Source: a virus
IMG/VR virus record: IMGVR_UViG_3300030090_003975
Coordinates: 501 to 26,353 of that record
Length of the DNA: 25,853 nucleotides
Direction: 5' to 3' (one strand)
The position numbers and the translations under genes are program-made. The first letter of the stretch is position 1. Every line of letters starts with the position of its first letter. This document shows positions 2,210-25,044 of the stretch, piece by piece. The notes below the pieces were generated by a model. It ran no database searches. It was not told where the DNA came from and saw only the letters and a list, made by a program, of their open reading frames with translations.

Positions 2210-2572
2210 TTAAAAATCGCTCATTATTTGATTACTTATTTCTTCTTGCACTTCTTCTTTTGTTGCTGCTAATGTAAAACTAAGGTCAGCTTGAAACCTA
2301 GCAACTTCTTCACCATCTTTAAATATTATTATAGTAGGTACGGATGATATTTTATATTTTTTAGCTTCATTAGGATTAGCAGCTATATCAGTATAAGCTT
2401 TAGTTTTACAGTCTTTTAAATCCATAACCCAAGACACATCATTAGCTTTATTCCAACCAGCATTAAATTGTACTACTTTTATTTGACCAAAACCAATACT
2501 AGCTAATAACATAAAAGTAATTATTAACATATACATAATTCTAGTAGGCCAAGTAAGTTCAGAATTTTCCAT
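2210..2572 (-). CDS. Membrane-anchored thioredoxin-fold protein lacking CxxC
   Basis: The product has 120 residues. Residues 11-30 form a hydrophobic segment (signal anchor or uncleaved signal peptide). The rest follows the thioredoxin pattern: a strand (IKVVQFNAGW, 31-40), a helix, the YTDIAANP element, then SVPTIIIFKDGEEVARF with the family's cis-Pro at 79. The position where CxxC should follow the Trp is occupied by NKAND, and the only Cys is Cys55, so dithiol redox chemistry is not expected. A binding, chaperone or adaptor role on the outer face of the inner membrane is more likely. The start overlaps the stop of the preceding membrane protein gene by one base (TAATG). Confidence 0.8.
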   Translation of the reverse strand: MENSELTWPTRIMYMLIITFMLLASIGFGQIKVVQFNAGWNKANDVSWVMDLKDCKTKAYTDIAANPNEAKKYKISSVPTIIIFKDGEEVARFQADLSFTLAATKEEVQEEISNQIMSDF

Positions 2573-4002: not shown

Positions 4003-7000
4003 TTATCTCTTAGAAGATTTTCTTGTTGAGGTTTTTCTTTTTGACTGTTCTTCTAGCGTTTTTATTATATATTCATTTAAGTATTCTTCTATTATTTTTT
4101 TGTTTTCTTTTTTGCTTTTTAAATCAGATATTTTTTCTACTCTATTAGATTCATAATTTAATTTTTTTATTTCATCATCTTTTAAACCTAATTTTTTCAA
4201 AAGTTCTACTTGTTGCTCTTTATTTAAATCAAACAAAGATTTTTCAATTACTAAGTTTGGATCTTTTTTTATTTTTTCTTTATATTGTTTAGCTTCTTCT
4301 TTCTTTTTTTCGTTATTTATTTTGTTTAAATCTTTTTCTTGTTGCGTTTTTATCTTTTTTTGATTTGTTTTTTCTTGCTTTATTTCAGCTCTAGTAGCTT
4401 CTATATCTGGATCTTTAATACCTAAATCCCAAGTGTTCCAACCTAAAAGCAAAGCAGCTCTTTGCCAGTAAGTATTACTTGAATCCATAGCATTATCTAT
4501 GTTTAACATTTTATTTGCTAATCTACCAAGCGGTATGTTTGTAAAACCTTCTATTACATTACCCACAGCACCCCAAATAGGATTATCTAATGTTAAACCT
4601 CGTTTTTTAAACACTTCTCTATTATATTTTCTTGACTGTATGGATCTATATATCTTTCCTACTTTAGAACTTATAGGCGGGGAAAAACTTAAAAGCTGTA
4701 GTATTGTATACGTATGATCTGATTTTGTTAAAAACTCTTCATCAGTATCTTTAGCATCTTGTTTTTGGTATTCTATTGCCGCATTTTTTACAGCACTAAC
4801 CGCCCTGCCCCCAAAACCTATAGTTACTAACCAAGTATCTATCATACTGTTTAAAGCTCTATCTGTTCTTTTATCAAACTCTTCTTCATCATCAGTCATA
4901 GCAAGCATAGCTGATTGAAGAGCGTGGAATATAATATTCATGATAGCGCCATAATAAATTATTTTTGAAATGTGAGTTTTGGTATCACCTCTTTTGTTTA
5001 CTATATCTCTAATGGCTTTATTTATAATTCTACCAGCCTGCATTGGATAGTTAGCAAACGCTAATACTAATCTACCTAATGGACTTTTTTGTTGTTGAGA
5101 TAGCATGTCCGGTCTAGATGACTGCTGTGACACCTCTGTTATTTCTTGAAAATCTAAAAATGCTTGTTTTTCAGCTTCTTTTTGAGTCATACCTTCTTTC
5201 ATTAAAGACTTAACTCTATTTCTATAAAAAGCAGCTCCACCACTAGCGATAGCAAAACTATCTGCAATTTGTGTTGGTAAAAACCCTTTTTGTAACAACC
5301 AAGCTATAGCTGCTTTAGCTTTGTTTTGACTAGCTGCAACAGCTGCTGAAAGTTCTGCTTCATTAATACCTCTTCTGTTACCAGATCTTCTTTGTTTTAA
5401 ATAATCAGAATTAAATATCATTACAAAGTCTGCCCAGTATTGTTTTTGATTAGCAAATGCTTTTGCTGCTGCAAGTATACTGTTATCGCTCCAATTTATA
5501 TAGTTAGTTAAAGATATAGTTTGCAGTAACGCAGATCTCATGTTAAAGAACATAATAGCACCAACAGCATTATTAACCCAGTTCATATACATGTTTACAA
5601 GCCTATTAGTACCTTGTTTTCTGTTTCTACCAGTCTCCATGGTAAATAACATGTCTTCTAAAGCTTCTCTAAAGTTTTTACCGTATATAACTTGTATTTT
5701 ATTTAAATTTTCTTTAGAAAATATTTCGTTTTTATTTTGTATAAATTCGTTTAAAAATTTAGATCTTACATCTCCAATAGCACCATCACTCAACAAGTCA
5801 GAATTTATGTTTTCAACCAACCAGTGTTCACTTGGCTTAGCATAACCTTCTTTTCTTTTAGATATTCTACCAACTTTATCTGCAAACTGTTTTAACTCCG
5901 CATCATTTTTTACAAAATTATTTAATAACGTAGCATCTTTTTTTGATAAACCAGGTATTTCAAAACCTGCTTTTTTCCAAAGATAAACCCTAATAGCTTG
6001 ATCAACGGTAAATTCTACATTTTCATAACCATCAAACTCTTTAAGTTTTTTTGGTAAGTCTTTTTTAATATTTTTATAACTTTTTAATAATTGTTTGTAG
6101 TTTTCTGAAGCTATTTGTCTAGAAGCATTTAATTCATCTATACCTCGTGAAAAAGGATCAATTAAAGTTTTCTTAAAAAACTCCATTTGTTTTTCTCCTC
6201 TTTTTCCTTTATCTAAAAAGTTATATAACAAACCAACAAAATCTTGTGCTGACGCTGGTATTATTGATTTATATTTTGATTTGTTACCTCTTAATTTAGC
6301 TTGTGCATCAGAAAATTTTATAACAGCTTGAGTACCAGTTGTTTGTTGAATTATCTTGTTAAACTCTCTGTTTAAGTTACCTGCTTTACTAAACTGTATT
6401 TTAGCTTGTTGTACTTTTGATTTAACATCAAACTGATCTAACATGTTTTTAACAGCTTGTACATTTTGCAAGGCATCATCAGCAAAATAAAAATCATTAT
6501 AACCTTCGGCAACTTTATCAGCTATCCACAATGCTTTTGCTTCAGCTGTAGAGTTTGCTAAACCAGTTATATTTTTTAAAGGTATATTTAAGCCATTGGC
6601 TTTTAAAAAGTCATATATTGCTTTTGCAGACTCTGCTGGTCTAGCTGTTAAAACAAACATGTTTTCAGGGCCAAATTTACTTTGTAGTTTTAAAGCTTTT
6701 TTAAACAACGGCGCTGTTTTACCTTTTACAACTTTTGTAAATTCTGAAAAATCAAACTCATAACCTTGTCCCAATAAATCTTCATAAGTAGCGGCATATT
6801 GCTCTGCGTTTAGTTTACCTTTAGTACCGTCTGGCCTGGTATATCTAATCATTGACTTTGTTGTTGCTAAAGTATCATCAAAATCTAAAACAGTTATACC
6901 ACGCGTTAGATTGTTTAAACGAGAAACTAAAATTGCTTCATCTATAATTTTAGCATTATCTTCTACTTTACTAAACTGAATATCGGTGCGGTTGTCAAAT

Positions 7001-10000
7001 TCATACCCTTTTTCTTGTATTTCTTTTTGAACTTGAGGTAGATTCATTACGGTTTGTAAATCACCTTTTGTTTTATTTGTTTTATCTATTATTTTGCTAA
7101 GTGTTGTAGGTAATAAAATAACATAAGAATTATCTAACATCTTTTCTAAAGCTTTTATATTTTCTTTTGAAGGATTTTCAATAGTTCTATTTATTTCTTG
7201 TTTAATTTCATTTACTGGTGGCCTATGTTCTAATGTTGTTTTACCTTTATAATTTATTATATGACCAGCTGGTTTAGATAATTTCCTAACAGCTCCAACT
7301 TGATCTACTGATAATAAATTAATTATAGCTTTTTTATCTTCTATAGACTTATCAGATTTAATAACTTTAATAATATAATCTCTAGTTTTACGAGCTTCTT
7401 CTATCATGATTTCAACAGAACCACTTGGATCTATTTTTATTTCAATTATTTTTTTATAAGTTGTTAATTGATTACCAAGATAAAATATAGCTTTTTTTGT
7501 TTTTTCTTTGTTTACAAAATCTACACTAAACTTTTTATTATTAAGTGATTTTATTATTAATTCATATATCTGCTCGTTAGTAGTTATAGTTACACCATTA
7601 TAAACTACCTTTGCTGTTCTAGATGACTTACTATTGTTTTTTAACCAATCAATAATAACTTGATCTTTAGCATCCTTATCAGCGTTTTTATAATCTTGTT
7701 GTAAATCTTCAACAATCTTAGGAAAAGCTATATTTCTTATTTGTGCATCTGAAAATCTTTTAGCTTTACCTAGTAAATTATCTAAATGTTTTGGCGTTAA
7801 AGCACCATCATAAAGCGTGCTTTCAATTTGATAATTAGCAATACCTTCTAATTGTATTTGATTCCAAGTACGATCAACTATATTAGAAAAAGTACCACCT
7901 CTTTCTATTTCACTTTTTAATACTTCTGCTATTCGCACAACAGAACCGTAATTACCAGTTGGTTCTGTAGAGTTTATTAAATAGTTAAGAAAATCTATAG
8001 ATTTATTTATTTGGTTTTGACCCATTAACTTAGACTTGTACTTTCTATTTATTTCAAATAAATCAATTATTTTAGAAGAGTCATAAGCACGCGAAAACAT
8101 AACATCTGCTGGTCTACCTATAGTTACGCTTAATTGTTGTACGCTTGTAGCATCTACATCCATTTCAGCTAACATATCTTGAACCTCTTTACTTTGTCTA
8201 GCTTCCATTACAGCGTCTAGTACTAATCCGTTTACAATATTTTTTGTAAGACCATCTTTTCTAGTACCTTTTAATCCACTTCTAACCATTTTAGTAGGAT
8301 CTTTTTTAGAAGGTATAGATCCAGGCTGATCAGCATATTCTATAATTTGAGTTTGATCAGGTATTACCTTGTCGTATTCAGGAACTTTTTTGTCTTTATC
8401 ATATTTTCTTAAAGCATCTGGCGGTAATCTACCTTCGTTCACAGCTTTTTCAACGTCTCCTTTTCTAGTGAGTTGTCCTTTAAATCTAGTAAAAATTTTA
8501 TCTTGTTCAGCTATAAGTCTTTCTATTTGCACAAAATCAGCTGTTGATATAAGTTTAACTATATCTTCTCTAAACTGTTTTAAGTTTTCAAGATATATAT
8601 CTTTAGTGCCTTTAGGAACAACTTCTTTTGGTATACCGTATGATAACCAGTTTTTAATTTGTTTAAATAAAGGACTATTAAGGTTGTTATGTTCTTTTTG
8701 TAACTCTTCTAGCACAGCTCTTTCTCTAGCGGCAACATCTTTAATATTTCTAGTTTTAGCATATGCTCTTATTAAACTTTTTTTAGCGGCATCAAGAATC
8801 TCGTTATATATTTGACTTCCAGTTTCAAAACCAACTACTTTTCTAAATTTAGATTCTTTTTTAGCTTTAGTTTTAGCCTTTTTTCTAGCTCGAGCCGCTG
8901 GTGATATATCTTCTGTTTCAAAAGCTTCCATATCAACATCTTTTTCAGCAGCTACTTGAACTTTTGTTTCACCCTCTTTGGTTTTATCTTCTATAGGTTT
9001 TGCAAATTTTCCTTCTGCTGTTTGTTTATAAATTTTATTATAAACCTCAGCGGCTTTATTGTGTAATTGACTATTTATCCAGCCAAACAAGCTATCGTTC
9101 ATTTCAGGATTAAAGTTTCTTACATGTCTAGTTAGTTGTGCATATACATCACTAACAAAATCAGGTGGCACGTTTTCTACTTTATATTGTGCTCTAATTA
9201 AACCATCAAGTAATCTATTTTCTTGCAACTCACCCATAGCAAATTTATAACCTTGTTCTTTCCAAGATTTATTGTCCCAACCCATATTAGCTAAATCGTC
9301 AATCTCTTTTTTAGATGTTTTAGAAAATGCAAAATAATCATTACCTTTGTCTTTTGCTCCTTCAACTAATATTCCTTTAGCTCCATTATCTATTACTTTG
9401 TTAATAGCACTACTTTCATAGCCTTTTTTCATAGAAGCATTATAATCTTTTATAAAATTATATACGTCTTTACCAGTGTTAAATTTAATACCTTTTATTC
9501 CTATTCTTTGTAAAGTCTGTCTTATAAAATCACCTATTTTAGTAAAAAATCCTTCGTTATATTCTAATGTACCATCTAATATAGATTCAGACATTAAAGT
9601 AATAACTTCTTCGCCAAAATTTGCATCTTTTCTAAACTTTCCATCTTTGTCAAAAGTACCATATCTACTTAGTTTTTGTCTAAGTTTATAAGTACTATCA
9701 GTTTTCAACGTGCTAGTGTATTCAAGTAATGCATCGCCTAATTTAGTTCTAATAGAGTCATCACCTTTTATTGTGTTTTGCAAAGCAAAGTGTAAAAACT
9801 CATGAGCGGCCACAAATACATTTCCATTTTTATCTAATAAAGAAACTTGTTTGTTTATATATATAGTAGTATTTCCGTCTCTACGTCTATGTATAAAACC
9901 GTGAGAGTTAGGTCCTTGTTTCATTCTTTTAAAGTTATCACGCTGCTCTGCTCTAAGTGCTTCTAACTCTTTACGTATTTTATTTTTTTGAATTCTAGGT

Positions 10001-13000
10001 GTTTTAGGATTTTTTAATAACTCCTCAAACATTAATATTTCTTCTTTAATAAGAGCGGCATCTTCCATAAACAAATCTTCAAAATAATCTTTAACACTTT
10101 CATATGTTTCAAGCTCTTCAAAAGTAAGTCTAGCGCCTTTACCAACACCATATTTTTTATCTCTACGATCGTTGTATTTTTTAATTTTCTCTATAAGCCA
10201 CTTTTTATTTTCTTCATATTGTTTAACCTTTTTCTCTCTAGTCTCAACATTTTCATAAGGCTCTACAATTTGATTTCTTCTATCTTTTAGTTTATTTTCT
10301 TCTACACGACTATCTTTTATTCCTTCAATTTTTTCTTCTCTACTTAAGTCTTTATCCTCTCTTATATCGTCTTCTTTTTTTCTTTGCTCATGAAGTTTTT
10401 GATCTATTTCTATTAATTCTTCAACTTCTTTTTCACTCATCATATCAACGTTTTCGTTGTTGTTTTTGATGTAATCATTTTTTTCTAAAACAAGGTCCAT
10501 CCACTTGCTGATTAATTCAGCTTTTTTACTTTTGCTTAAGTTTTTAAACTTTAATTGATTTTCAATGTTTTTTAATTTATTGTTAAATATATCTATTTGG
10601 CTCTCATAAGTTCTACCTACAAAAGGTCTTATAAAATTATTAGCTAAAAGACCAGGCATCGTAATAGTTCTTTCCATAATAACACCTTGAACCATAGACT
10701 CAGGAACGTCTCTAAACAAACTCACTTCGTTCATACCATAAATAAATTTATCACCTGCGTTTTGCCCAAACAATGTTGCTGCACCTTCAGAAAGCGACTC
10801 ACTAAGCGTGTAGTAACCCCCAAGCAATAAACTTTTAGGCTGTAAAGTTTTTTTCATACTATCAACAAAGCCAGTGTGTACACGTTTATTTAAAGGATTA
10901 AGTTTCCCTCTTAATAAACCAAGTGTAACTCTTTCGGTAACAAACTCAGCCCCAAACATAAGACTAGCATGCATCCATCTTTGAGCCTCGCTATAGTCTG
11001 TTGTACCAAGAAAATTACTATGTCTAGAACGATCTAAACTGCTACCAGCAGCTGAGGCAGAAAGAATAGTTAAACCAGCTGTACCTCCACTGGCATATAA
11101 AATACCTAATTGTGGTAAAAATTGAGTTACAGATCCCCACGTGTACCTGCCATAATCTTCAGCTGATTCAAGTTGACCCCACTTTGGCATTGTTCTTACG
11201 CCATTGTGTAGTTCATAGGAAAACTTATTCCACTCACCTTTATAACCGCTAGTGTATTGACCGGTAAATTGACCATTTTTAAAAACAGGCATACCACCCC
11301 TCCATTCTTCAAAACTATCACCCCAACCTTTAAACGTTTCTGTAAGAGCTACAATAACTGGATATTGATCTGACCAATTACCTGGTATTACTTTTTCTAT
11401 ATTCATAGGTACCTCAGCTATTAAGCTTTCAATTGAACCAACTATATCTATTGCGCTACCTAACAACTTATATGCGCCAAACGTTAATGCGTGTCCATTT
11501 TTTGATATATGATTATAAAACTCAACAAGTTCTGTTTCGTCTTGAACAAGACTTTCTGCTTTTAATAAATATCCGTTGTACATGATTACATTATTTTTTT
11601 GTTGTTCATGTAAGGTTTTTATCTCTAGACGATCTTTTTCTAACTCTGCTTGAGCAACGTTATACTCTTGTTTTAAATCATTAGCTTGTTGAACAAGGGC
11701 GTTATATTGGTTATATTGAAACTCACCCCACTTAAAAGGACCATATGTTACTGGTTCTCCTAATTCATTAAAACTTGCTTCAATTTGCTCTGATTTAATT
11801 GTAAAATAGGTTGCTTTTTCTTTAGATTTTTTTTCATATAACGCTGTTAAATTTTTTATTTCAACACTATTTTTTTCAATAAAAGCTATAGAGGCATTTA
11901 AAAGTTTAATATTTGCTTTCGCCTCTTTAGTAATATTTTTTAATTCTTTCTCCGCGTCTTTTGCTAATTTAGCTTGTGTTTTTGGCATCGATAATTGCCA
12001 CCACGATTGATTTTTATCAATATAACTTTCAATGTTTTCTTTTGTTATTTCAGCAGCAGCTTCATCAATAAACATTTGGTTCATCTCTCTTCTAATATTT
12101 CTTTCAGTATTCCATTGAAAAGGAAACTCTTGTTGAACCACATGCTTACCATCTATGTATTGATACTTTTGTCCGTTTGATTGGTTTAAATAATAATCAC
12201 CGTTTTGAACAAATTCATCTCCAACACCTTCAGATGGAGTGTTATCAAAAACTTTATACAAAGGAACTCCTTCAAAATTTGGATCAAGAACAGCCGTTAT
12301 GTGTCTATATGGAGAATCATTACCAAACTCATCATAAAAATTAGATATTAATCCTCTTTCTTTGTCTCTAAGAAATAAAAGTTTTCTAGCTTTTATATAT
12401 TTAAAATATGTCCAACTACTCTTTATAGCCAGTTGTAATTTTCTTTCATTTTTAAATTTAGGATCATTAACAAGTGCTCTTAACTGTTTACACGACCAAC
12501 CTAAGTAACCGCTTTTTTTAACAGTACCACCACTATATTCACAAGCGTCATCTCCCCATACACCCCAAGCTAAATTATGTACAATATTTCCATTTTGATC
12601 TTTTACAATATAATTTTGTGTTTGATTTGGCGAACCTTCAACGATAAGTAATTCAGGATTATAATAATCACCTTGTTTTGCTACTAAAGCATTATATTTT
12701 CTAATTTTACTAAGAATATCATCAATAGCATTTTTATTTTTAGCAACCACAGCGTCTTCTTGTTTTTTCGACGGCATAAATCTATATGCGTTTTCTAACG
12801 CTGTAGAATTTTTTAATGATTGCTCACTGTCTAAATCCGTGCTATTACGGTATTTATTAATTTCATTTCTTTTTTTATTTTTTTCATACAAGTTGATTTC
12901 TTGTACCGTCATTTCAGTCCAAGTATTACCTTGATCACTTGACTTCATATATGGTCCCAATATCATATCCGGACCTCCACCTCTGTACCAAAAATTATCA

Positions 13001-13701
13001 TTAAGACCATCGCCATATTGATCATTTTCTTCTGTTTCTTTGTCTTGGTAATATCCAACAGGCTGTACAATACCATCAGTACCTCTACCATTTTTGTTAG
13101 CTAAAGCATGGGAAGGTTCTAAAAAATTAAAATCATTAGCATACATTGAATTTATTTCTTCCCAATTAATGTCTGCTATTTTAGGAATTTGATTAGGATT
13201 TGCATCAAAAGATCTTTTATCTATTGTACTAGCGTAAGCGTTTAATAATTCTGGATCAAAACCTTGTAAATCTGGAAATTTTTCACCTATAACACTCCAG
13301 AAGTCAAAATCTTCTTCTAAAATATTACCAGAATCAACACCTTCTTTATACCTGGATGGTGAAGAGTTTAGTGCTGTTATTACAAATTCTTTTAATACAT
13401 CTTTTAAAGCATTGGAGCTTTCAAGGGCAGTTGTTTTTGTTTGTTTTAATGGTGGTGGTGGTACAAACTCGTTTAAGTTTTTGCCTTGCTTATAATGACT
13501 AAAAGCAGCCATAGATATACGTCCCCAATCTCCATCAGCACCGTCTTTATTAGGACCAGTTTTACCGAGATTAGCGCCAAGGTCTATTAACTGCTGTTGA
13601 ACAAATGTAATTTGCTCTTTGTTCATCTTGACAATATCACTTGTGGTAATATTGTTAATATTTGTAATTTCTTTTATATCAAGTTCTCCTATATTATTCA
13701 T
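4003..13701 (-). CDS. Giant 3232-residue polyvalent virion/ejection protein (zincin + HAD + helical core)
   Basis: Predicted parts in order: residues about 28-72, a peptidoglycan-binding-like segment (VQQQLIDLGA, then DGDWGRISMAAF); 560-740, long coiled coils; about 858-888, a Gly/Ala-rich hydrophobic stretch; 1060-1290, highly charged coiled coil; HEFLH at 1300-1304, the zinc-binding motif of zincin peptidases; about 1520-1555, a helix pair around LFGWINSQLHNKA; a complete HAD signature with DFDDT (2273-2277), LTARP (Thr2352) and ADD (Asp2408-2409); about 2690-2940, a conserved core with NRLVNMYMNWVNNAVGAIMF and a hydrophobic helix near 2910-2935; 3100-3232, a Lys/Glu coiled coil ending in KTSTRKSSKR. 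This layout matches marine-phage large polyvalent proteins thought to enter the host with the DNA. By position it corresponds to T7 gp16, but it is about 2.5 times longer and I see no lytic transglycosylase. The ORF is intact, with no frameshift. The start at 13701 has an A/T-rich leader. Confidence 0.88.
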   Translation of the reverse strand: MNNIGELDIKEITNINNITTSDIVKMNKEQITFVQQQLIDLGANLGKTGPNKDGADGDWGRISMAAFSHYKQGKNLNEFVPPPPLKQTKTTALESSNALKDVLKEFVITALNSSPSRYKEGVDSGNILEEDFDFWSVIGEKFPDLQGFDPELLNAYASTIDKRSFDANPNQIPKIADINWEEINSMYANDFNFLEPSHALANKNGRGTDGIVQPVGYYQDKETEENDQYGDGLNDNFWYRGGGPDMILGPYMKSSDQGNTWTEMTVQEINLYEKNKKRNEINKYRNSTDLDSEQSLKNSTALENAYRFMPSKKQEDAVVAKNKNAIDDILSKIRKYNALVAKQGDYYNPELLIVEGSPNQTQNYIVKDQNGNIVHNLAWGVWGDDACEYSGGTVKKSGYLGWSCKQLRALVNDPKFKNERKLQLAIKSSWTYFKYIKARKLLFLRDKERGLISNFYDEFGNDSPYRHITAVLDPNFEGVPLYKVFDNTPSEGVGDEFVQNGDYYLNQSNGQKYQYIDGKHVVQQEFPFQWNTERNIRREMNQMFIDEAAAEITKENIESYIDKNQSWWQLSMPKTQAKLAKDAEKELKNITKEAKANIKLLNASIAFIEKNSVEIKNLTALYEKKSKEKATYFTIKSEQIEASFNELGEPVTYGPFKWGEFQYNQYNALVQQANDLKQEYNVAQAELEKDRLEIKTLHEQQKNNVIMYNGYLLKAESLVQDETELVEFYNHISKNGHALTFGAYKLLGSAIDIVGSIESLIAEVPMNIEKVIPGNWSDQYPVIVALTETFKGWGDSFEEWRGGMPVFKNGQFTGQYTSGYKGEWNKFSYELHNGVRTMPKWGQLESAEDYGRYTWGSVTQFLPQLGILYASGGTAGLTILSASAAGSSLDRSRHSNFLGTTDYSEAQRWMHASLMFGAEFVTERVTLGLLRGKLNPLNKRVHTGFVDSMKKTLQPKSLLLGGYYTLSESLSEGAATLFGQNAGDKFIYGMNEVSLFRDVPESMVQGVIMERTITMPGLLANNFIRPFVGRTYESQIDIFNNKLKNIENQLKFKNLSKSKKAELISKWMDLVLEKNDYIKNNNENVDMMSEKEVEELIEIDQKLHEQRKKEDDIREDKDLSREEKIEGIKDSRVEENKLKDRRNQIVEPYENVETREKKVKQYEENKKWLIEKIKKYNDRRDKKYGVGKGARLTFEELETYESVKDYFEDLFMEDAALIKEEILMFEELLKNPKTPRIQKNKIRKELEALRAEQRDNFKRMKQGPNSHGFIHRRRDGNTTIYINKQVSLLDKNGNVFVAAHEFLHFALQNTIKGDDSIRTKLGDALLEYTSTLKTDSTYKLRQKLSRYGTFDKDGKFRKDANFGEEVITLMSESILDGTLEYNEGFFTKIGDFIRQTLQRIGIKGIKFNTGKDVYNFIKDYNASMKKGYESSAINKVIDNGAKGILVEGAKDKGNDYFAFSKTSKKEIDDLANMGWDNKSWKEQGYKFAMGELQENRLLDGLIRAQYKVENVPPDFVSDVYAQLTRHVRNFNPEMNDSLFGWINSQLHNKAAEVYNKIYKQTAEGKFAKPIEDKTKEGETKVQVAAEKDVDMEAFETEDISPAARARKKAKTKAKKESKFRKVVGFETGSQIYNEILDAAKKSLIRAYAKTRNIKDVAARERAVLEELQKEHNNLNSPLFKQIKNWLSYGIPKEVVPKGTKDIYLENLKQFREDIVKLISTADFVQIERLIAEQDKIFTRFKGQLTRKGDVEKAVNEGRLPPDALRKYDKDKKVPEYDKVIPDQTQIIEYADQPGSIPSKKDPTKMVRSGLKGTRKDGLTKNIVNGLVLDAVMEARQSKEVQDMLAEMDVDATSVQQLSVTIGRPADVMFSRAYDSSKIIDLFEINRKYKSKLMGQNQINKSIDFLNYLINSTEPTGNYGSVVRIAEVLKSEIERGGTFSNIVDRTWNQIQLEGIANYQIESTLYDGALTPKHLDNLLGKAKRFSDAQIRNIAFPKIVEDLQQDYKNADKDAKDQVIIDWLKNNSKSSRTAKVVYNGVTITTNEQIYELIIKSLNNKKFSVDFVNKEKTKKAIFYLGNQLTTYKKIIEIKIDPSGSVEIMIEEARKTRDYIIKVIKSDKSIEDKKAIINLLSVDQVGAVRKLSKPAGHIINYKGKTTLEHRPPVNEIKQEINRTIENPSKENIKALEKMLDNSYVILLPTTLSKIIDKTNKTKGDLQTVMNLPQVQKEIQEKGYEFDNRTDIQFSKVEDNAKIIDEAILVSRLNNLTRGITVLDFDDTLATTKSMIRYTRPDGTKGKLNAEQYAATYEDLLGQGYEFDFSEFTKVVKGKTAPLFKKALKLQSKFGPENMFVLTARPAESAKAIYDFLKANGLNIPLKNITGLANSTAEAKALWIADKVAEGYNDFYFADDALQNVQAVKNMLDQFDVKSKVQQAKIQFSKAGNLNREFNKIIQQTTGTQAVIKFSDAQAKLRGNKSKYKSIIPASAQDFVGLLYNFLDKGKRGEKQMEFFKKTLIDPFSRGIDELNASRQIASENYKQLLKSYKNIKKDLPKKLKEFDGYENVEFTVDQAIRVYLWKKAGFEIPGLSKKDATLLNNFVKNDAELKQFADKVGRISKRKEGYAKPSEHWLVENINSDLLSDGAIGDVRSKFLNEFIQNKNEIFSKENLNKIQVIYGKNFREALEDMLFTMETGRNRKQGTNRLVNMYMNWVNNAVGAIMFFNMRSALLQTISLTNYINWSDNSILAAAKAFANQKQYWADFVMIFNSDYLKQRRSGNRRGINEAELSAAVAASQNKAKAAIAWLLQKGFLPTQIADSFAIASGGAAFYRNRVKSLMKEGMTQKEAEKQAFLDFQEITEVSQQSSRPDMLSQQQKSPLGRLVLAFANYPMQAGRIINKAIRDIVNKRGDTKTHISKIIYYGAIMNIIFHALQSAMLAMTDDEEEFDKRTDRALNSMIDTWLVTIGFGGRAVSAVKNAAIEYQKQDAKDTDEEFLTKSDHTYTILQLLSFSPPISSKVGKIYRSIQSRKYNREVFKKRGLTLDNPIWGAVGNVIEGFTNIPLGRLANKMLNIDNAMDSSNTYWQRAALLLGWNTWDLGIKDPDIEATRAEIKQEKTNQKKIKTQQEKDLNKINNEKKKEEAKQYKEKIKKDPNLVIEKSLFDLNKEQQVELLKKLGLKDDEIKKLNYESNRVEKISDLKSKKENKKIIEEYLNEYIIKTLEEQSKRKTSTRKSSKR

Positions 13702-13715
13702 ATTAATAATAATTT

Positions 13716-15278
13716 TTATCTACCTTCGTAATCAAAATCGTAATTAGGATCAATGTTACTATATATACCTCCATATACATTTATTAATTCGTGACGCGTG
13801 TGAACTGTTCTATCAGCACCTTTAAAAGGTGTTTTGTTAGGATACCCATGAGCTATATAATTACCTGAATCTGGATCAAACTTATATATTATTTTCTCTC
13901 TACCACCAAGAGTAATATATTGTTGGCCCTCAGCTATAGCTAGTACTGTATTATAATCTTCAACCTCATTACCTCTTGTTGGCGCTACTACAGTTTTACC
14001 AAATAATTCAATTGTAGTTTGTTTAGAGTCTTTTGGTAATCCTTTTGTGTATGATATTCTGTGTTTTTCTTGTATTATTTCTGCAAAATGTTGCTTTAAA
14101 AGAGATTTTGATCTTTCAAGATTAAAGTTAGGATTATCTATATCTGTTAAGACTTTAATCATTAAGTTATAATTTTCTCTAAATATTTTTGGATTTGCGG
14201 CGTTTTGAATATCGTTTTGATCTATAACACCATCTTGACCATGAACAGCAATCATTTCAGAAAACAACTCTAAAAATGTAGCATCCATTAACTCTAATTG
14301 TATACCGTATTTTCCACTAAATTTTAATTCTGTTAAAAAAGAAGGTCTACCAAGTGTTACATTTCTATTACTACCACCCATTCCAACTCTTCTTAAAGCT
14401 AAACTCCTAAAATGTTCTGGCGTTTGTATTATAACATCTAGTTGAGATAATATTTCATCCATGTTAATATCAGAATTTAACTTTAATTTTCCTCTTTCAA
14501 AAGCTTCGTCTTCCATGTCATTTACAAGTGCTAATAACTGAGTGTCTTTTTCTAATATAGCTGCTGGAAAATTTTTTCTCATTTGATCTATATTAAAAAC
14601 AGCCTCGCCCGTCATGTACTCTTCTGTTAAAAAACCAAGTTGAGAGGTTGGATCTGGATTTCTAACACTTCTATATGCTTTTTTAAAGTTTCTTGCATAA
14701 AAAGTTAGTTTACCATCTATAAATCCTACTTGCACATCTGGATCGTTATCTATATCAACACCCATCATTTTGTTTTGAGCGGCTATTACGTCCGTATCTA
14801 TAGCACCGTCAATCCATGAATCTCGAACTGAATATAAAGTTTCAAAAGTTTGTCTAGCGTTATAAGCTTCGTTAATAACCGATTTAAGCTCAGCACTTAA
14901 ACGAGTTCTTGCTCTTTGATTTTCAACATTATCATCTTTACCAAATGTGTTAACAGCCATAAACTCCTCTTGAAGTCTTCTTATTTCCATATCTAAAGCA
15001 TCAACAACTTTTTGACTCATTGTTTCGCCCTTATCAACAAGTTTTTCTTTTTGTGCTACTAATGTTTTTTGAAATGCATTTAACTGTTTTTGTCTACCAA
15101 CCTCCATTTTTTGTTCTTCCGCTATATAACTTTTAAACATATCGTCCATCATTTTAGCATAACTTGCTGTTGCGGCAAGATCACCTTTAAACAAAGGAGT
15201 CATGTCCGGGGTGTCTATCTTAGCTTTTGATAAACCGTGCTTTAAAGATAAATTTATTAATGAATTGTCTACTGCCAT
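13716..15278 (-). CDS. Internal virion protein, T7 gp15-like by position
   Basis: The product has 520 residues, is soluble and mostly helical by composition, with a long charged helix at about 45-110 (KSYIAEEQKMEVGRQKQL onward) and no signal peptide or membrane segment. No catalytic motif is visible. The role is assigned from context: it sits between a small Gln/Ala-rich helical protein and the giant ejection protein, the same order as T7 genes 14-15-16, whose products form the internal core and DNA-ejection channel. I do not recognise the sequence family beyond resemblance to uncharacterised structural proteins of marine phages. It ends 14 bases before the giant gene. Confidence 0.7.
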   Translation of the reverse strand: MAVDNSLINLSLKHGLSKAKIDTPDMTPLFKGDLAATASYAKMMDDMFKSYIAEEQKMEVGRQKQLNAFQKTLVAQKEKLVDKGETMSQKVVDALDMEIRRLQEEFMAVNTFGKDDNVENQRARTRLSAELKSVINEAYNARQTFETLYSVRDSWIDGAIDTDVIAAQNKMMGVDIDNDPDVQVGFIDGKLTFYARNFKKAYRSVRNPDPTSQLGFLTEEYMTGEAVFNIDQMRKNFPAAILEKDTQLLALVNDMEDEAFERGKLKLNSDINMDEILSQLDVIIQTPEHFRSLALRRVGMGGSNRNVTLGRPSFLTELKFSGKYGIQLELMDATFLELFSEMIAVHGQDGVIDQNDIQNAANPKIFRENYNLMIKVLTDIDNPNFNLERSKSLLKQHFAEIIQEKHRISYTKGLPKDSKQTTIELFGKTVVAPTRGNEVEDYNTVLAIAEGQQYITLGGREKIIYKFDPDSGNYIAHGYPNKTPFKGADRTVHTRHELINVYGGIYSNIDPNYDFDYEGR

Positions 15279-15299: not shown

Positions 15300-16064
15300 T
15301 TACTGAAATATAGGGCCGTCTAATCCAGGAAATTTTATAGTTTTCATTTTTTCATATATATTTGGTAAAAACGGATTTCCTGTTTCTGCAGAGTAATCAA
15401 ATGCTCCAGCTTCACCTGCTTTAAACCCAGTTGACACTACGTTTTGTAGACCTGAAATTAAAGCTTGTTGTTGTGCTATTTCAGCGTTCATTTGGTTTGC
15501 TTGAGCTTGAGCAAAAGCTTGATTAGCTCCAGTTGCTTCACCCATCTGCATACCAAGCAATGTAGCTTGTCTATCTCTTATAGCTTGCTCAATGTTTTGT
15601 TCACCTTGTCTTTCTGCCATCTGCACTCTCATAGCACCTTGCGCTGCCAATCTTTGGTTTGCTGCTTCTTGTTGTCCTATATTAGCTGACAATCTTTGAA
15701 CTTGCAAAGCTCCTTGGTTTGCTAATGACTGTGCTAAACCCGCAATTCCACTTGCTCCAGCAGCATCACGTAATCCTCCTAACACATCTGATAATTGCTG
15801 TGAAGATTGCTGTGCTTGAAATTGAGCTTGTTGTTGGTTTATTGTTAAGTCCTCAAAAGTGTTTTCCATATCCTGAAAAGGATTTCTAAACTGCATATTC
15901 CTATATCTTTCCTTTTCTACATCTAACAGCGCTTGTTGTCTGTCTCTTTCTTTTTTTTGTTCTCTATATTGATCTTGTGCTATTTTTCTATTTTTACTTG
16001 CAGCGTCCATACCCATAAGACCTACAGCAACAGAACCAGCTACTGATATTGCACCCCAAGCCAT
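15300..16064 (-). CDS. Gln/Ala-rich internal virion protein, T7 gp14-like
   Basis: The product has 254 residues. It opens with a short hydrophobic helix (AISVAGSVAVGLMGMDAA), followed by a basic coiled coil (KNRKIAQDQYREQKKERDRQ). A long low-complexity helical region then follows, rich in Gln, Ala, Asn and Gly (about 70-210), ending in a Pro/Gly-containing tail. A small protein with an N-terminal hydrophobic helix and Gln/Ala-rich coiled coil is typical of the first ejection proteins (T7 gp14, P22 gp7), which insert into the outer membrane during DNA entry. The assignment rests on this composition plus gene order. The gap to the cupin gene upstream is 25 bases. Confidence 0.72.
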   Translation of the reverse strand: MAWGAISVAGSVAVGLMGMDAASKNRKIAQDQYREQKKERDRQQALLDVEKERYRNMQFRNPFQDMENTFEDLTINQQQAQFQAQQSSQQLSDVLGGLRDAAGASGIAGLAQSLANQGALQVQRLSANIGQQEAANQRLAAQGAMRVQMAERQGEQNIEQAIRDRQATLLGMQMGEATGANQAFAQAQANQMNAEIAQQQALISGLQNVVSTGFKAGEAGAFDYSAETGNPFLPNIYEKMKTIKFPGLDGPIFQ

Positions 16065-18558: not shown

Positions 18559-21500
18559 TTATGATATTGTGTTGTTATTTATTAATAATTGCGAAGCGTT
18601 TACTACTCCTATACCTTGATAAGTAAAATCTTCTTCTTCAATTTTATTTCCTTCTGCGCCTTTAATGTAGTTAAACCATTTATTTTCTTTTTCTATAAAT
18701 TCAACATTTGCGCCAATTTGCATATCGGTTTGTATGTTTTGTAAATACCAACCTTGTTTGTTTTGTAAATTAAAGTATTCGTTGTCTTCTAGGTCTTGTG
18801 TTATTTTTGCTTGAGAACCTTCATATACTAGTGTTTTAAAACTTTTAACTACACTAGGACTATCATTTAATAAAAAAGTTATAGTAGAAGGATCTGAAAA
18901 ACCGTAAAAACTATTAAAACCATTAGATTCAGTATGGTGTTGATATATTTTGCCTTGATAAAAAGTATAATAATCACTAGCCATACTTACACCACTTTCC
19001 ATTTGTATAAAAGATTTAAAACTAACCCAACCTTTTACATCTTCTTTGAAAGAAACAACATATCCAGGGTTACCAGTAGAATTTATATCAAATACATTGC
19101 TAACTTCTTGTTTTAAAGCTATGTTGTATTCATCTTTTTTATGATCATAACTACCAATTAACTTGTTACTAAGCTTTATATTATCTCTAAACCAATCTTT
19201 CATTCCATGATCAGATATAGGTGTTAATCCATCTCTTGATAACCTCATTACCGCGCCTCTTTGTTTGTCTGTAAAATAAGCTCTATATGATTCAGAAGCA
19301 AATGATTCTGGATTTTTAGATATACCATATTCACCAGCATAAGGTATTGTTTGCCCAAGAACATTTATATTAGCTACTAATTGAGGATTTCCATCGGCAT
19401 TATACACTGCATCTTTTGTTGCTAATATTTTCAATATTCTATCTTCACAAAGAGTAATTAAATCACCATCGGCTGTAGATCTTGAGTGTAGTTTTTGTAT
19501 ACTACCGTATATTGGATTTATTTCTTTTGTTATTTTTTCCGCCGTTATAAATTGATTTAAATTATTTGTAGAGCTAATAGAGTTGTACACACCTGAAAAT
19601 ATTAAACCGTATTTTCTTGTTTCTTTTTCTATTTTTTCTTCTAACGTAGAAGAGGCTCTTACGCCATTTGAAATAAAAGGTAAATTATAGTTATCTCTAA
19701 TTCTATTTGATTCAACACCATTTCCAAAAGAATAGCAATTATAATAATTTAAAGCGTGCCAAGCGTTCCAAGTAAAATTTTGAACAGTTAACTCGTTGCC
19801 ACTTATAGATTCAACAAGAGTTGAAAAAACACTACCATCTGGTTTGGTTATATGTACATAATCAGAATTACTAATCGTTATTGCATTTCCACTAATAACT
19901 ACAGGCGCTTGAGACAACTGCAACGTATTTCCTTCTAAAGCCAATATTGTTGTTCCATAAGGTATTGCAAAACCATTTACATTTGAGGCAGCGGTAATTG
20001 TACAATTTTCAAAACTACCTATTTGATAACTTTGTTGCCCAATTGTTTCTTCTAGTAAAGGTAAAAAACCTGAATCTGTTTGTTTTTCTAATTCTATAGG
20101 TATTAAATTACTTGCCTCATAATAAACGTCTAAATCAGGAGAGTCTTTAGGTTCTGTTTCCCATATAGCTGGATTTTCAGGTAAAGCTTCATTGTCATAA
20201 CTAGCTTCAATAAACTCCATAGTATAACCAACAGCATACAATAAACCGGTGCTAGCACCATTTGTACCACCACTGGCATTCTCTGTAAAAGCACCCTTAC
20301 CAGTCGTGCTTTTTTGTAAACTAATTCTAGCAGCAGAGTTTGGGCTATAGCCGTTCATAGTTCCCTGTACAAAAGTTATACTTGTATTAGGGTCTACACT
20401 TATAGTATGTCCTAAGTCTAAAGCTTCAACATAACCTGTTAAATATATTTTTACAGAAAGAGCGCCGCCATACATACCGTTATTTAAATCAACATCTTTA
20501 ACAACTAAATAAGGGCCATCGTTTGACGCACTAATAGGTGTTGGATCGTCACTTGGTGTTCTTACCGTGCCATCTTTATCTGTATACGAACTAACTACAT
20601 AACCAGGTACTACTCTACAAGGATTTCCATTTTGATCTGTTGCACTATTATAAGAGTCTAAAGTAACAACAATATAATGGTCATCTATACCTGTAGACGA
20701 ACTACCATCACCTCCAGTTGCACCAACATCAACATTGTTTCCATAAGGTCCATCGTTAGAGGTGTAATTAGAAGTAGTTAAGGTTGTTGTTATACCAGCT
20801 GGAGTAATTGGTCCTATATTTGGTTGATTACCACCTTGATCTACTGGTACCCAATCTAACATTCCAGGCTCATGTTCTTGAACCCACCGCCATCTTTTAT
20901 TAAAGTTAGTAGATAACTGTGCGCCATTGAAATGACCATCACCAAGCTCGTCAGGATCGTTAGCATAATCAACTCCTGCGCCCTCCATTAGCATTTGCCC
21001 AGGATTAGTATAATCTCCTTGTGAAAAATATCTTATAATATTCTGTTCGGTAACTTGATTGTTAAGGTGGAACTCTGTTTTATTTGGATCTTCTGCCCAT
21101 CTCCAAGTGTTACCAGGCGCAAGTCTATCAGTAAAGTTCGTTGTTGGTGGATCATTATAATGTGGGTTTCCTGTACCAATAGCAAAAAAGTTTGGAAAAT
21201 GAACCCCGTTTGTTTGTGATAAAGAATTAGAAAACACACCTAAATTACTACCTGATCCAGCAAATCCAGAGGCTCCGTTAATCTTGTCATTACCAGCGGC
21301 TTCATCATAAAATATAGGGCCTAACGTTAGTTTGAAATGATGATAACTAGATCCTGATTGTGTCAAAGCGTCACCAGATGGCGATCCAATGGCCCAAGAT
21401 GAAATACCTCCGATGTTCATATCACTGTGATCAAAAGGTACACCTTGACTACTTGGTAGTTGGTTAGGAGTAAAATTATTAGCACTAGCGGTAGACTTAT

Positions 21501-24500
21501 CAACGTGTTTATACATATCTAAAAACCAAACCTCATTGTCTCTCGCGTGTAGATCAGCAGGTTTATTGTCATCTAAATAAGCTATTGCTGCACTGTCTGC
21601 GTCGTTTAAATATACGTCAGTTTCGTATGTCCAATTAACGGTTTTCCAATTAAAGCCAGTATAATCATAAAACTCTCTATACCAAGGAGCACCGTTAGGA
21701 TCAAAACTATTTACTTCTACAGTCCCAACATTTCCAGGTGAGTGAAATCTATATTTAGAAGTAGAAACATCAATTGTACCATTTGAATCACCGTTAGAAT
21801 CTATTTGATTATTATGCCAATCTTTATTTCCATAATCATATCTTCTAAAGTAGGAAGCAAATTTACCAAAAGCATGACTATACGCCGATCCACCACCGTT
21901 TTGACCAGCATTAGGATCAACTCCGTGACCAGTTGCTTTCGTGCTGTGCAACACGTGATGGTTTTTACGCATAGAATATACTTTCTTACTACTCACTCTT
22001 CTCCAAGTTTGACCTAGAGTAGTGTCTTGAGAAATATAATTTCTAAAATTATCGTCTATATATATTTTTACAAAAAACTTACCATCAAATATAGGTAGAT
22101 TTTCAACTTTGTGTTTAACTATATTAATTACAGCATCATCTTGTATTTCACTTGAAGCTTGACCTGTTGGATCATCTGTTATAAAATTAACATCATCACC
22201 TAAAAACTCATCAACTTTAACGTAATATTTAGGATCAGAAACACCAGTATCGTTAACATCTGTTGTAATAGACGTTATTCTATACTCTTTACTTTTAACA
22301 CTAGAACCCTGCATTGTTAGTGAAAAATATAATTCACCATCTTCTATTTCATGTAAATTTCTACCAGAAGTATTTGAAAAAAAGTTGTAGTTTAATGTAA
22401 ACTCATCACTACCTGACGTTGGAGCATTAACAAGGGTGTTAATACCAAAAACATTACTATTAGCTGTATTTAAATGTTTTGCCCTTACAATATTTGTTAC
22501 TTTAGTTTTAACGTAATCAGGCGCCTCAGATTCTATTGCTAAAACTTTATACCTAGATTTATTGTCTACAGCTTCGTTAGTTTCTTGACCTTTTTTTAAT
22601 ATTAAAAAAGTATCTATATCTATTTTGTTTCTATCAGACGAAGGAAACGATAACCAAACATTACCATCCTCTGCATCGTACCAACGATCCATAGCCATAT
22701 TATAATACTCGCCAGAAGTTTGTTTTATATAAAACTTATAATACTTTTGGTTTCGAGGTAAACTAGATTTAAATCCTACTCTTAACCTATTTGCCTCGGG
22801 AGCACGTGAATAATCTACTTCAAAAGTTCCAGAAGGATTTGATATTACTGGTGTTTCTCTTCCATATTCATCTATAAAAACAACGCCAAGTTGATACTCT
22901 CTTAGTGATTTTATAGATTTTATAGAATTAGTTTGGTAAGAAGTCCAGCCTAAAGGATGGTTTGTGTTTAACAAATCTATTTTAAATTCAGGAGAATAAG
23001 GATTACCAGCAATATCAAAAACGTCCCAACCTTGCGTATAGTTACCATAAACAATTCTATTACCAGTTATTTCTTGTGCTAAAGCTGTTTTAGGCACGTT
23101 ATCCCAAGATCTTAACAATTGGTTTGAAGGCACGGTAGCTTTAATAGTTTCGTGTGTTATTGTATATAAATCTGCATTCCAATAATCATCAACCGAATCT
23201 TTTTTAATTGTATCTACAACATATATATTTGGAGAAGCGTCTTCTTTATATAAAATATCTATTTCAACTACATCTAAAGGCGTGTCGTTTAATCTAAAGT
23301 TTTTAACACCAATTTTAGTTAACAAGTTGGTCATACCTAAATTATAACCTTTTTTAGGGTGATAATCAAAAGAACCTGGTACAAAAGCTACTTGTGTAAA
23401 AGGTGAATAAGTAGAGTATTCACCGTCGCTATATTTATATCTTGTTGCAAACCTAGGAAATTTAAACTCAAAAAGCCTTTCGTAAGTGTCAAATAAATCT
23501 ATTGCGTATAATCTTTGTTGTGTAACAGGGTCTGCTGTAGGTGCAAAGCCACTTTTGTTCGTTATTTCTATTTCTACCTCAACAGGGGAAGCTGCACTTG
23601 CTGTAAAGCCATTTGTGCCAACACCTACTATATCTCCCTTTATTCTATAGTTTGTTATTGGTATTGAAGGAGGGTCTTGAGAACCACTAGATAATTCATC
23701 ATATTCTTTTAATACTACTGTGCTACCAATAGCCCAGTCTTTAAGTAAAAACTGCGAATTACCATAAATATCTTGACTAATCCTTATGGTTATTGTATCA
23801 CCAATAGCAACGCCAGAAAAATCATATGGATCTGAATTAAAAGGATTACTAGTTGTAATTATGTCATCATCGTCGTTAGCAAGAACACCTTGATCAACAC
23901 CTATTGTTATTGCTCCAGTATAAACTTCTGGCAAAGGTAACTCTAAACCACTATAATCTCTACCTGTTATTAAATCTAAAATAGGTGCTTTACTAGGTGG
24001 TTTTTTTATGACTGTAACATGTTTTTCTTCTAGTATTATATTATCAATAAGCCCTATATTAGTTTTTTCATTTATTAATCTTGTATAACTTCCTACAGGT
24101 GTTCCTTGTTTACATCTTGTTATGTTTATTTTTTTAGGTTCATTATAATTATCTGTCCAAAATAACATATCATCAATAATATTTATTCCTGTTATTATGT
24201 TTTCGGCTTGAAAGTTTAATGGAGGTTTATAATCATCTGTAGAAAAACTAAACTCTAAAGCCAAAATAGAACCAGCATTAAGCTCTGTTAGTAAATCATC
24301 AGGAGTATAACTTAAACCAACAGAACCAATAAATGCGTTAATACCAGCTCCAACAACCGGAGCAACTGGCGAAAACAAACCTGTCGTAGGAGTAGGACCA
24401 CCGGTAGAATAAGTGGCGCCGTTAGAAAAATCATAAGTATTTGTTATAACGGGAGGTTGGTTTGCAGACCAAGAAGGTTGTAAAACATGGACAGCTGTTA

Positions 24501-25044
24501 GGCTCATACCTTGCATAACAATATTAACTTGACTTGTAAAAAATGTTAAAAAAGTGTTTAAAAATATACCGCTTTGAGTTATAGCAGATTGCTGGAAAAA
24601 TTCATTCAAAGGTATTATAAGACTTGATGCTTCTACAACAACAGGTGATACAGTGTTGTCTTTATATTCTATTATACTAGAACCTTGAGATAAAACATTA
24701 AAATATGGTTCTTGAGTAGATCCAGTATTTGATGGAAAATCATAATTCATTGTAATATCTTCAATGTCAACAGTATTGCCAGCTGTTAAAAACCAATATA
24801 CTGCGTTATTTTTTTCATCTGCAATGCTACCAACACAAGTTTTACTGTTACCTATAATCAAATCTTGCTGACTTGAATTAAGTTTGTAATTACTCAAAAG
24901 ATTTTGAATAGTACCAACCTCAGAGCTGTCTGATGTAGATACTTGTATATTCATCGCATCTCTATAATCTCCATTTGGAACAAGTCTTTCATCAAGATCT
25001 TTATTCATTTTACCACCGGTAAAATTTTGTTTAATTTCTGGCAT
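18559..25044 (-). CDS. 2161-residue tail/stabilisation protein with marine-phage GGKMNKDLDERL signature
   Basis: The N-terminus contains FTGGKMNKDLDERLVP and NGDYRDAMNIQVS (8-36), a signature I know from large tail-tube or packaged-DNA stabilisation proteins of marine podovirus-like phages. The C-terminal part (about 1850-1960) contains IQKLHSRSTADGDLI, LCEDRILKIL, VLGQTIPYAGEYGI, YFTDKQRGAVMRLS and DGLTPIS, a repeated-strand region resembling the beta-propeller-like half of P22 gp10 / T7 gp12-type proteins. Between them lies a long segment (about 1015-1615) rich in Gly, Ser, Asn, Asp, His and Trp with low helix content, which looks like an inserted set of beta domains and explains the size (typical relatives are several hundred to about a thousand residues). 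It starts 3 bases after the connector-like gene. A virion tail role is well supported; the exact position is inference. Confidence 0.82.
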   Translation of the reverse strand: MPEIKQNFTGGKMNKDLDERLVPNGDYRDAMNIQVSTSDSSEVGTIQNLLSNYKLNSSQQDLIIGNSKTCVGSIADEKNNAVYWFLTAGNTVDIEDITMNYDFPSNTGSTQEPYFNVLSQGSSIIEYKDNTVSPVVVEASSLIIPLNEFFQQSAITQSGIFLNTFLTFFTSQVNIVMQGMSLTAVHVLQPSWSANQPPVITNTYDFSNGATYSTGGPTPTTGLFSPVAPVVGAGINAFIGSVGLSYTPDDLLTELNAGSILALEFSFSTDDYKPPLNFQAENIITGINIIDDMLFWTDNYNEPKKINITRCKQGTPVGSYTRLINEKTNIGLIDNIILEEKHVTVIKKPPSKAPILDLITGRDYSGLELPLPEVYTGAITIGVDQGVLANDDDDIITTSNPFNSDPYDFSGVAIGDTITIRISQDIYGNSQFLLKDWAIGSTVVLKEYDELSSGSQDPPSIPITNYRIKGDIVGVGTNGFTASAASPVEVEIEITNKSGFAPTADPVTQQRLYAIDLFDTYERLFEFKFPRFATRYKYSDGEYSTYSPFTQVAFVPGSFDYHPKKGYNLGMTNLLTKIGVKNFRLNDTPLDVVEIDILYKEDASPNIYVVDTIKKDSVDDYWNADLYTITHETIKATVPSNQLLRSWDNVPKTALAQEITGNRIVYGNYTQGWDVFDIAGNPYSPEFKIDLLNTNHPLGWTSYQTNSIKSIKSLREYQLGVVFIDEYGRETPVISNPSGTFEVDYSRAPEANRLRVGFKSSLPRNQKYYKFYIKQTSGEYYNMAMDRWYDAEDGNVWLSFPSSDRNKIDIDTFLILKKGQETNEAVDNKSRYKVLAIESEAPDYVKTKVTNIVRAKHLNTANSNVFGINTLVNAPTSGSDEFTLNYNFFSNTSGRNLHEIEDGELYFSLTMQGSSVKSKEYRITSITTDVNDTGVSDPKYYVKVDEFLGDDVNFITDDPTGQASSEIQDDAVINIVKHKVENLPIFDGKFFVKIYIDDNFRNYISQDTTLGQTWRRVSSKKVYSMRKNHHVLHSTKATGHGVDPNAGQNGGGSAYSHAFGKFASYFRRYDYGNKDWHNNQIDSNGDSNGTIDVSTSKYRFHSPGNVGTVEVNSFDPNGAPWYREFYDYTGFNWKTVNWTYETDVYLNDADSAAIAYLDDNKPADLHARDNEVWFLDMYKHVDKSTASANNFTPNQLPSSQGVPFDHSDMNIGGISSWAIGSPSGDALTQSGSSYHHFKLTLGPIFYDEAAGNDKINGASGFAGSGSNLGVFSNSLSQTNGVHFPNFFAIGTGNPHYNDPPTTNFTDRLAPGNTWRWAEDPNKTEFHLNNQVTEQNIIRYFSQGDYTNPGQMLMEGAGVDYANDPDELGDGHFNGAQLSTNFNKRWRWVQEHEPGMLDWVPVDQGGNQPNIGPITPAGITTTLTTSNYTSNDGPYGNNVDVGATGGDGSSSTGIDDHYIVVTLDSYNSATDQNGNPCRVVPGYVVSSYTDKDGTVRTPSDDPTPISASNDGPYLVVKDVDLNNGMYGGALSVKIYLTGYVEALDLGHTISVDPNTSITFVQGTMNGYSPNSAARISLQKSTTGKGAFTENASGGTNGASTGLLYAVGYTMEFIEASYDNEALPENPAIWETEPKDSPDLDVYYEASNLIPIELEKQTDSGFLPLLEETIGQQSYQIGSFENCTITAASNVNGFAIPYGTTILALEGNTLQLSQAPVVISGNAITISNSDYVHITKPDGSVFSTLVESISGNELTVQNFTWNAWHALNYYNCYSFGNGVESNRIRDNYNLPFISNGVRASSTLEEKIEKETRKYGLIFSGVYNSISSTNNLNQFITAEKITKEINPIYGSIQKLHSRSTADGDLITLCEDRILKILATKDAVYNADGNPQLVANINVLGQTIPYAGEYGISKNPESFASESYRAYFTDKQRGAVMRLSRDGLTPISDHGMKDWFRDNIKLSNKLIGSYDHKKDEYNIALKQEVSNVFDINSTGNPGYVVSFKEDVKGWVSFKSFIQMESGVSMASDYYTFYQGKIYQHHTESNGFNSFYGFSDPSTITFLLNDSPSVVKSFKTLVYEGSQAKITQDLEDNEYFNLQNKQGWYLQNIQTDMQIGANVEFIEKENKWFNYIKGAEGNKIEEEDFTYQGIGVVNASQLLINNNTIS

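Follow-up and report, generated by a model that had tools for sequence, protein, structure and literature searches.

Why a virus should place a protease motif and a phosphatase motif within a single chain of 3232 residues, and what becomes of that chain upon infection, are the questions raised by a giant gene in the DNA analysed here. The window, a stretch of 25,853 nucleotides, corresponds to positions 501-26353 of a 36,206-base virus record in IMG/VR (IMGVR_UViG_3300030090_003975). A preliminary description of the gene, made from the sequence alone, had likened its product to an ejection protein with peptidase, phosphatase and wall-binding modules. The results below lead us to view the giant as a polyvalent cargo protein that would be carried in the virion and ejected, and whose zincin metallopeptidase would cut its own chain at the seams between modules and free the cargo, a reading for which we put the chances at about even.

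Modules of the giant protein

The open reading frame (ORF) starts with an ATG on the minus strand, on which all features given below also lie, and runs uninterrupted from position 13701 to position 4003. The single intact frame of the preliminary description was thus upheld, and a relative (L004) showing 87% identity along the entire length is likewise intact. No match to known phages was found at the DNA level, and single-sequence scans of the giant against Pfam, PHROGs and NCBIfam returned nothing significant. Searching IMG/VR with the giant itself retrieved 9 loci; an alignment of the HAD domain and the C-terminal core (see below) yielded at least 547 confirmed relatives, 80 of which were kept. 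Relatives range from 2124 to 4318 residues. Nearly all the intact ones have both an HExxH motif and a HAD signature, the zincin lying mostly about 800-1200 residues ahead of the HAD; the remaining modules are variable.

The zincin domain spans residues 1222-1445 (9367..10038). The HEFLH motif reported previously at residues 1300-1304 (9790..9804) was confirmed, and alignment of 60 zincin regions, down to 17% identity to the window, left H1300, E1301, H1304 and E1365 (9607..9609) as the sole invariant columns, the last being the candidate third zinc ligand. In the model, HEFLH and E1365 belong to two successive helices, with two strands preceding. The passages of Iyer 2017 (PMC5512222) that deal with the metallopeptidases of polyvalent proteins describe them as having HExxH and a Glu on the following helix, after two strands, and the alignment and model suggest that the window zincin has this same HExxH-plus-Glu arrangement. 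In 15 of 74 relatives (including L027, L029, L039, L012 and L071-L073) the fit of the zincin to the family profile is poor, and most of these have an Asp 2 or 3 residues past HExxH. This appears to represent a swap of protease type within the same slot, and the HExxH-then-Asp pattern resembles that of a phage clade mentioned in a passage of the same paper.

The HAD domain occupies residues 2266-2435 (6397..6906). The full signature claimed for this region is present (DFDDT at 2273-2277, DD at 2408-2409), and across 76 aligned segments comprising HAD and core, residues D2273, F2274, D2275, T2277, T2352, R2354, K2389, D2408 and D2409 are invariant. In the fold search, the modelled domain came closest to the T4 Pnkp 3'-phosphatase (Z 12.3, 123 of 142 aligned, 2.5 Å); bacterial Pnkp1 came second (Z 12.2) and other HADs scored 10.4 and below. 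By predicted fold the domain is therefore nearest to the polynucleotide 3'-phosphatases, and fold and motifs together suggest that it has such a role. The presence of a zincin and a HAD in one virion-type protein, noted from the outset, holds, with the HAD refined from a generic phosphatase to one resembling Pnkp; a sigma-2-like domain and a series of seam motifs had been overlooked.

The sigma-70 region 2-like domain (residues 1460-1596, 8914..9324) follows the zincin in 65 of 74 relatives. Every fold match listed for residues 1460-1564 was a sigma factor, the best being 4lup (Z 7.5, 87 of 91 residues, 3.1 Å), and Foldseek gave a probability of 0.82 for RpoS. When the domain was isolated, the sole Pfam match was Sigma70_r2 (E 0.17-0.2, 12 bits for a cut-off of 24); the same family reached E 0.007 in the record of the nearest relative, and comparison of a family profile with PDB placed a sigma factor on top (E 0.077). 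Counting against the assignment, the sequence evidence lies below all cut-offs and 7.5 is only a moderate Z for a domain made of helices. The signals are individually weak, but they converge on the same residues.

Two further cargo domains, M1 (residues 1607-1867, 8101..8883) and M2 (residues 1961-2229, 7015..7821), precede the HAD; Pfam recognised no sigma region 4, which binds the -35 element, in either. Beyond the HAD lies a conserved helical C-terminal core (residues 2443-3097, 4411..6375). Its conservation had been asserted earlier and is borne out by its presence in 83 of the sequences searched; no relative of the core was found among 63 pattern matches in bacterial genomes. Fold searches gave no named fold for the zincin part or the core, Foldseek of the models returned nothing with E <0.001 in PDB and one uncharacterised viral protein in BFVD, and sequence profiles of zincin plus cargo and of HAD plus core found no relative in PDB. 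Single-sequence scans detected no Pfam polyvalent domain (LPD, PBECR, ART and similar) above cut-off, LPD14 reaching E=0.0054 in one relative. At the C-terminal ends of the giants of two relatives (L008 and L009; residues about 2590-2664 and 3380-3450), two Cys/His repeats, DUF5763- and GvpO-N-like, stand in place of the tail and resemble small zinc-binding units.

A short motif at the seams between modules

An unbiased count placed SRS, FSK and KFS among the top tripeptides between zincin and HAD, and not ahead of the zincin. The pattern [VIAT]xFS[KR] occurs 82 times between zincin and HAD, against 6.95 expected (11.8-fold, kinship ignored), and 45 times at the seam between HAD and core, against 0.78 expected; before the zincin the count is 4 against 4.6 (0.9-fold). 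None of 127 copies lies inside recognised domains, which make up 40% of residues; for letter-scrambled forms of the motif, 23-53% fall inside. The window giant has FSK at residues 1459-1461 (9319..9327), where a disordered linker ends, FSR at 1869-1871 (8089..8097), and FSK again at 2243-2245 (6967..6975) and 2437-2439 (6385..6393), in the disordered linkers ahead of the HAD and between HAD and core, respectively. Predicted disorder at 1440-1459, 2225-2245 and 2429-2440 adjoins or holds the three FSK copies. One relative (L054) has nine FS[KR] sites in a single protein. A further string considered as a seam, IFSKENLNK, about 380 residues past DFDDT, proved to be part of the core and was excluded from the seam count.

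Motif density is 0.80 per 1000 residues in proteins whose zincin fits the family profile poorly, compared with 2.17 in the others (P 0.0015, kinship ignored). The modules flanking the seams are exchanged between relatives and the motif is kept. These sequence patterns make the seam motif a candidate for the site at which the zincin processes the chain. In the passages of Iyer 2017 on this subject, zincins are the commonest polyvalent-protein domain and self-cutting has been proposed for them since that year (PMC5512222); no cutting site for polyvalent zincins was found named in the literature searched. The motif is restricted to seams that lie beyond the protease in this family, which numbers at least 547 proteins of marine phages, so that self-cutting becomes open to direct test.

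Several observations weigh against our reading of the giant. The preliminary description expected the two catalytic segments to adopt zincin and HAD folds; this held for the HAD, and for the zincin to the extent that HEFLH and E1365 were placed on helices, but no zincin was among the fold matches listed, other parts of the protein filling the list. Kinship inflates the motif counts: once related sites were merged, 15 clusters were left versus 3-8 for scrambled controls. No FS[KR] lies between zincin and HAD in 13 of 67 proteins. Among cultured phages, elemo and Gundel have HExxH and not the seam-motif pattern, and the Cellulophaga giants annotated from tandem mass spectrometry (MS/MS; see below) have neither zincin motif nor HAD, the MS/MS coming from those phages. 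Finally, N4 vRNAP bears a zincin and yet is packaged uncut, according to the part of PMC5512222 that treats it.

This last case is the basis of the rival explanation that survives best, one that we consider possible but doubtful: the giant would, like N4 vRNAP, function without being cut, with the motif serving as a conserved flexible linker or as an aid to threading or unfolding on the way down the tail; the zincin would be structural, regulatory or aimed at host proteins. The HExxH-containing vRNAP is folded as beads on a string, our motif sits in predicted disordered linkers as any linker might, and some relatives with a zincin of the window type are devoid of it. A generic linker, however, is not expected solely at seams downstream of the zincin, the identity of the motif is far more specific than disorder needs, and its density drops with the zincin score (kinship ignored). 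Since vRNAP is packaged uncut, a zincin need not cut before packaging, and cutting after entry would be compatible with both the uncut virion chain and self-processing.

Alternatively, the motif could be a scar of module shuffling by homologous recombination at a common linker, with no role in cutting. The exchange of modules beside the seams with retention of the motif is what such a process would leave behind. We regard it nonetheless as improbable: around the motif copies of a single protein, DNA identity is 34%, versus 31% at random, and the motif serine is encoded by both AGY and TCN codons, with no DNA in common beyond the motif. These features point to selection on the peptide and leave little common DNA to recombine.

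Very improbable, lastly, is a T7 gp16-like role in penetrating the wall during ejection, with the zincin as peptidoglycan endopeptidase, as the peptidoglycan-binding-like start that would favour it (residues 26-75, 13477..13626) is common to the nearest relatives only and gave a faint Pfam PG_binding_1 signal (E=0.15) in L004 and none in the window giant, the zincin matches M78/IrrE alone, faintly, and no wall-endopeptidase family, and no lytic transglycosylase was found in the giant by Pfam at E up to 1. The wall-binding module of the preliminary description is not supported as a feature of the family; its remark that no transglycosylase was visible agrees with the Pfam result. The hydrophobic stretch that it mentioned proved weak as well, no 19-residue span of the giant exceeding a Kyte-Doolittle value of 1.5 and no clear membrane stretch being apparent.

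Gene order, probable virion carriage and a possible mechanism

A tblastn search of a phage collection with residues 1068-3232 of the giant gave no match, and the route to cultured phages led via a neighbouring gene. This gene encodes a 2161-residue muzzle-type tail protein (18559..25044) that matches the crassvirus muzzle C-terminal domain, PF25729, above cut-off (3.7e-8) as well as phrog_14478 (3e-125); the domain is also found in flavophages outside Crassvirales. It is preceded by the gene for a ring-type virion structural protein of 260 residues (25048..25830; phrog_13977, 5.6e-21; homologous to proteins of L013 and L014). After ring and muzzle come genes for proteins of 509, 129, 164, 254 and 520 residues and then the giant; terminase-, portal- and capsid-type genes lie upstream of it on the same strand. 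The block order ring, muzzle, small, mid, giant is common to the window and the cultured flavophages: Cellulophaga phi38:1 and phi40:1 and Calle (Pervagoviridae), phi13:2, phi18:3 and Gundel (Pachyviridae), and also the elemoviruses and Panino.

In phi40:1, gp97-gp101 carry a note of annotation from experimental MS/MS proteomics, gp99, gp100 and gp101 being the small, mid and giant proteins; gp120, gp121 and gp123 of phi18:3 (small, mid and giant) are noted likewise. The small protein of the window (254 residues, 15300..16064) is homologous to phi38:1 gp99 (1.7e-25). The mid protein (520 residues, 13716..15278) is the counterpart of phi40:1 gp100 and N4 gp51 by position, no sequence homology to phi38:1 gp100 being detected. 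Within the giant, residues 843-1147 (10261..11175) form a domain common to the giants of phi38:1, Gundel, phi13:2 and elemo (blastp 3e-14 with Gundel and 3e-7 with phi38:1, far stronger by iterated profile), for which a function in packaging or ejection may be surmised. Because of the MS/MS notes, the block order and the homology of residues 843-1147 and of the 254-residue protein, carriage of the giant in the virion is well supported at the level of sequence comparison. The ejection-protein position assigned earlier is likewise corroborated, the small-mid-giant succession being that of N4 gp52-51-50, phi40:1 gp99-100-101 and phi18:3 gp120-121-123.

PF04998, for multi-subunit RNA polymerase, matched none of 12 relatives, its control being matched in 14 of 14; incomplete records, or divergence of the crassvirus enzyme beyond the reach of this model, could account for the absence. 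A scan with PF00940 (T7-type RNA polymerase) gave no match in 12 relatives, nor in any control, and no T7-type RNA polymerase domain was matched by Pfam in the giant. Free-standing sigma-70-type factors of about 250 residues are found in 6 of 12 longer relatives (e.g. L102 and L103), at the other genome end; they have no detectable kinship with the sigma-2-like domain. With no multi-subunit-type RNA polymerase found and sigma factors of their own in relatives, reliance on the host polymerase is plausible.

We can then outline how self-processing might operate. In a virus of flavophage-like, short-tailed type, the giant would travel within the virion and enter the host before the DNA, the 254- and 520-residue proteins being co-ejected to form an envelope channel. 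Residues 1-1150, chiefly 843-1147, would ensure packaging and ejection; next in the chain come the zincin, the sigma-region-2-like domain, two swappable domains, the Pnkp-like HAD and, last, the helical core. In the cytoplasm or already in the head, the zincin would cleave its own chain at disordered [VI]xFS[KR][SA] seams and release the cargo. The sigma-like piece might recruit host RNA polymerase to early genes. By removing 3'-phosphates, the HAD might help to repair ends of tRNA, RNA or DNA that host defence has damaged. In this full form, with an ejected self-processing polyprotein that releases both a sigma-like factor redirecting the host polymerase and a Pnkp-type 3'-phosphatase pre-empting nucleic-acid damage, the proposal is tentative, and we would not expect it to hold in every part. 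If it were true, the sigma-2-like domain would give a phage with no detected RNA polymerase a route to seize host transcription at entry, by injecting sigma-type transcription control instead of its own polymerase. The Pnkp-like HAD, for its part, suggests nucleic-acid end repair carried in the particle.

Other cargo occupies the same slot in two cultured phages: the giant of the Tenacibaculum phage Gundel (gp74; L018, 26810-34255) has a weak GNAT acetyltransferase match and elemo gp21 a DUF3293 match (1e-12). Downstream of the window giant lie genes for a thioredoxin-like protein of 120 residues (2210-2572, minus strand; PF00085, 2e-5), apparently without the CxxC active site, a basic 123-residue protein with DUF6321 (1836-2207, minus strand; 1.7e-11) and a PAP2 superfamily phosphatase of 175 residues (1321-1848, minus strand; PF01569, 1.2e-9, above cut-off). 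A Lys/Ala-rich protein of 80 residues follows (1079-1321). In the records of two relatives, ORF translations contain XXXX, reflecting brief stretches of undetermined bases away from the giant (L003, about 8317-9054 and 10952-12445; L002, 2-1429).

Comparison with known systems

The single domains resemble known proteins to different degrees. The likeness to sigma-70 region 2 is one of fold, as predicted for residues 1460-1564, and of sequence, through a weak, collinear match; the window domain differs in lying below the Pfam cut-off, in having no recognised region 4 and in being unlike the phages' own sigma factors. The fold of T4 Pnkp and bacterial Pnkp1 recurs in the modelled HAD, as does every HAD motif, T-x-R of motif II among them, but identity is about 12%, no kinase domain was detected in the giant, and the window HAD is fused inside a virion giant.

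At the level of the entire protein, the flavophage giants (phi38:1 and phi40:1 gp101, phi18:3 gp123, phi13:2 gp127, Gundel gp74, elemo gp21) occupy the same position and have regions homologous to residues 843-1147. They differ in having no DFDDT HAD, a zincin motif in elemo and Gundel only, and no seam-motif series. The crassvirus cargo proteins C1, C2 and gp47/49/50 (crAss001, PMC10172136) offer another parallel, with a muzzle-type gene nearby and large virion-carried proteins expected to leave before the DNA; crAss001, however, carries RNA-polymerase-related proteins, of which PF04998 found none in 12 relatives.

The polyvalent proteins of Iyer 2017 (PMC5512222) provide the closest anatomical match. 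In the sections that define their zincin/MPTase hub class, they are giant multidomain proteins among late virion genes, with a zincin of the HExxH-plus-Glu type and several unrelated enzymatic or regulatory domains per chain, for which the window has zincin, Pnkp-like HAD and sigma-2-like domain. The window giant differs in having no Pfam polyvalent domain above cut-off and in its sigma-2-like and Pnkp-like cargo and repeated seam motif. Giant zincin-bearing virion proteins were thus already on record, and the suggestion of a little-described type of ejectosome in the preliminary description cannot stand as to kind. It retains its force for the seam motif and for this combination of cargo, of which no description was found in the literature searched; the word sigma does not occur in Iyer 2017, and the passages on polyvalent proteins do not name a cutting motif.

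For the arrangement of genes a counterpart is N4 (Schitoviridae), where small, mid and giant proteins (gp52-51-50) stand in a row beside the head genes; the match is by position only, no sequence homology having been detected between the small and mid proteins of the window and gp52 and gp51. N4 gp50, of about 3500 residues, also contains an HExxH domain, and the large part lying C-terminal to it is helical. It differs from the window giant, in which no RNA polymerase domain was found and the zincin precedes the cargo, and it has only two FS[KR]. Judged by anatomy, then, the giant belongs with the polyvalent proteins, and by arrangement it resembles the N4 gp50-51-52 cassette.
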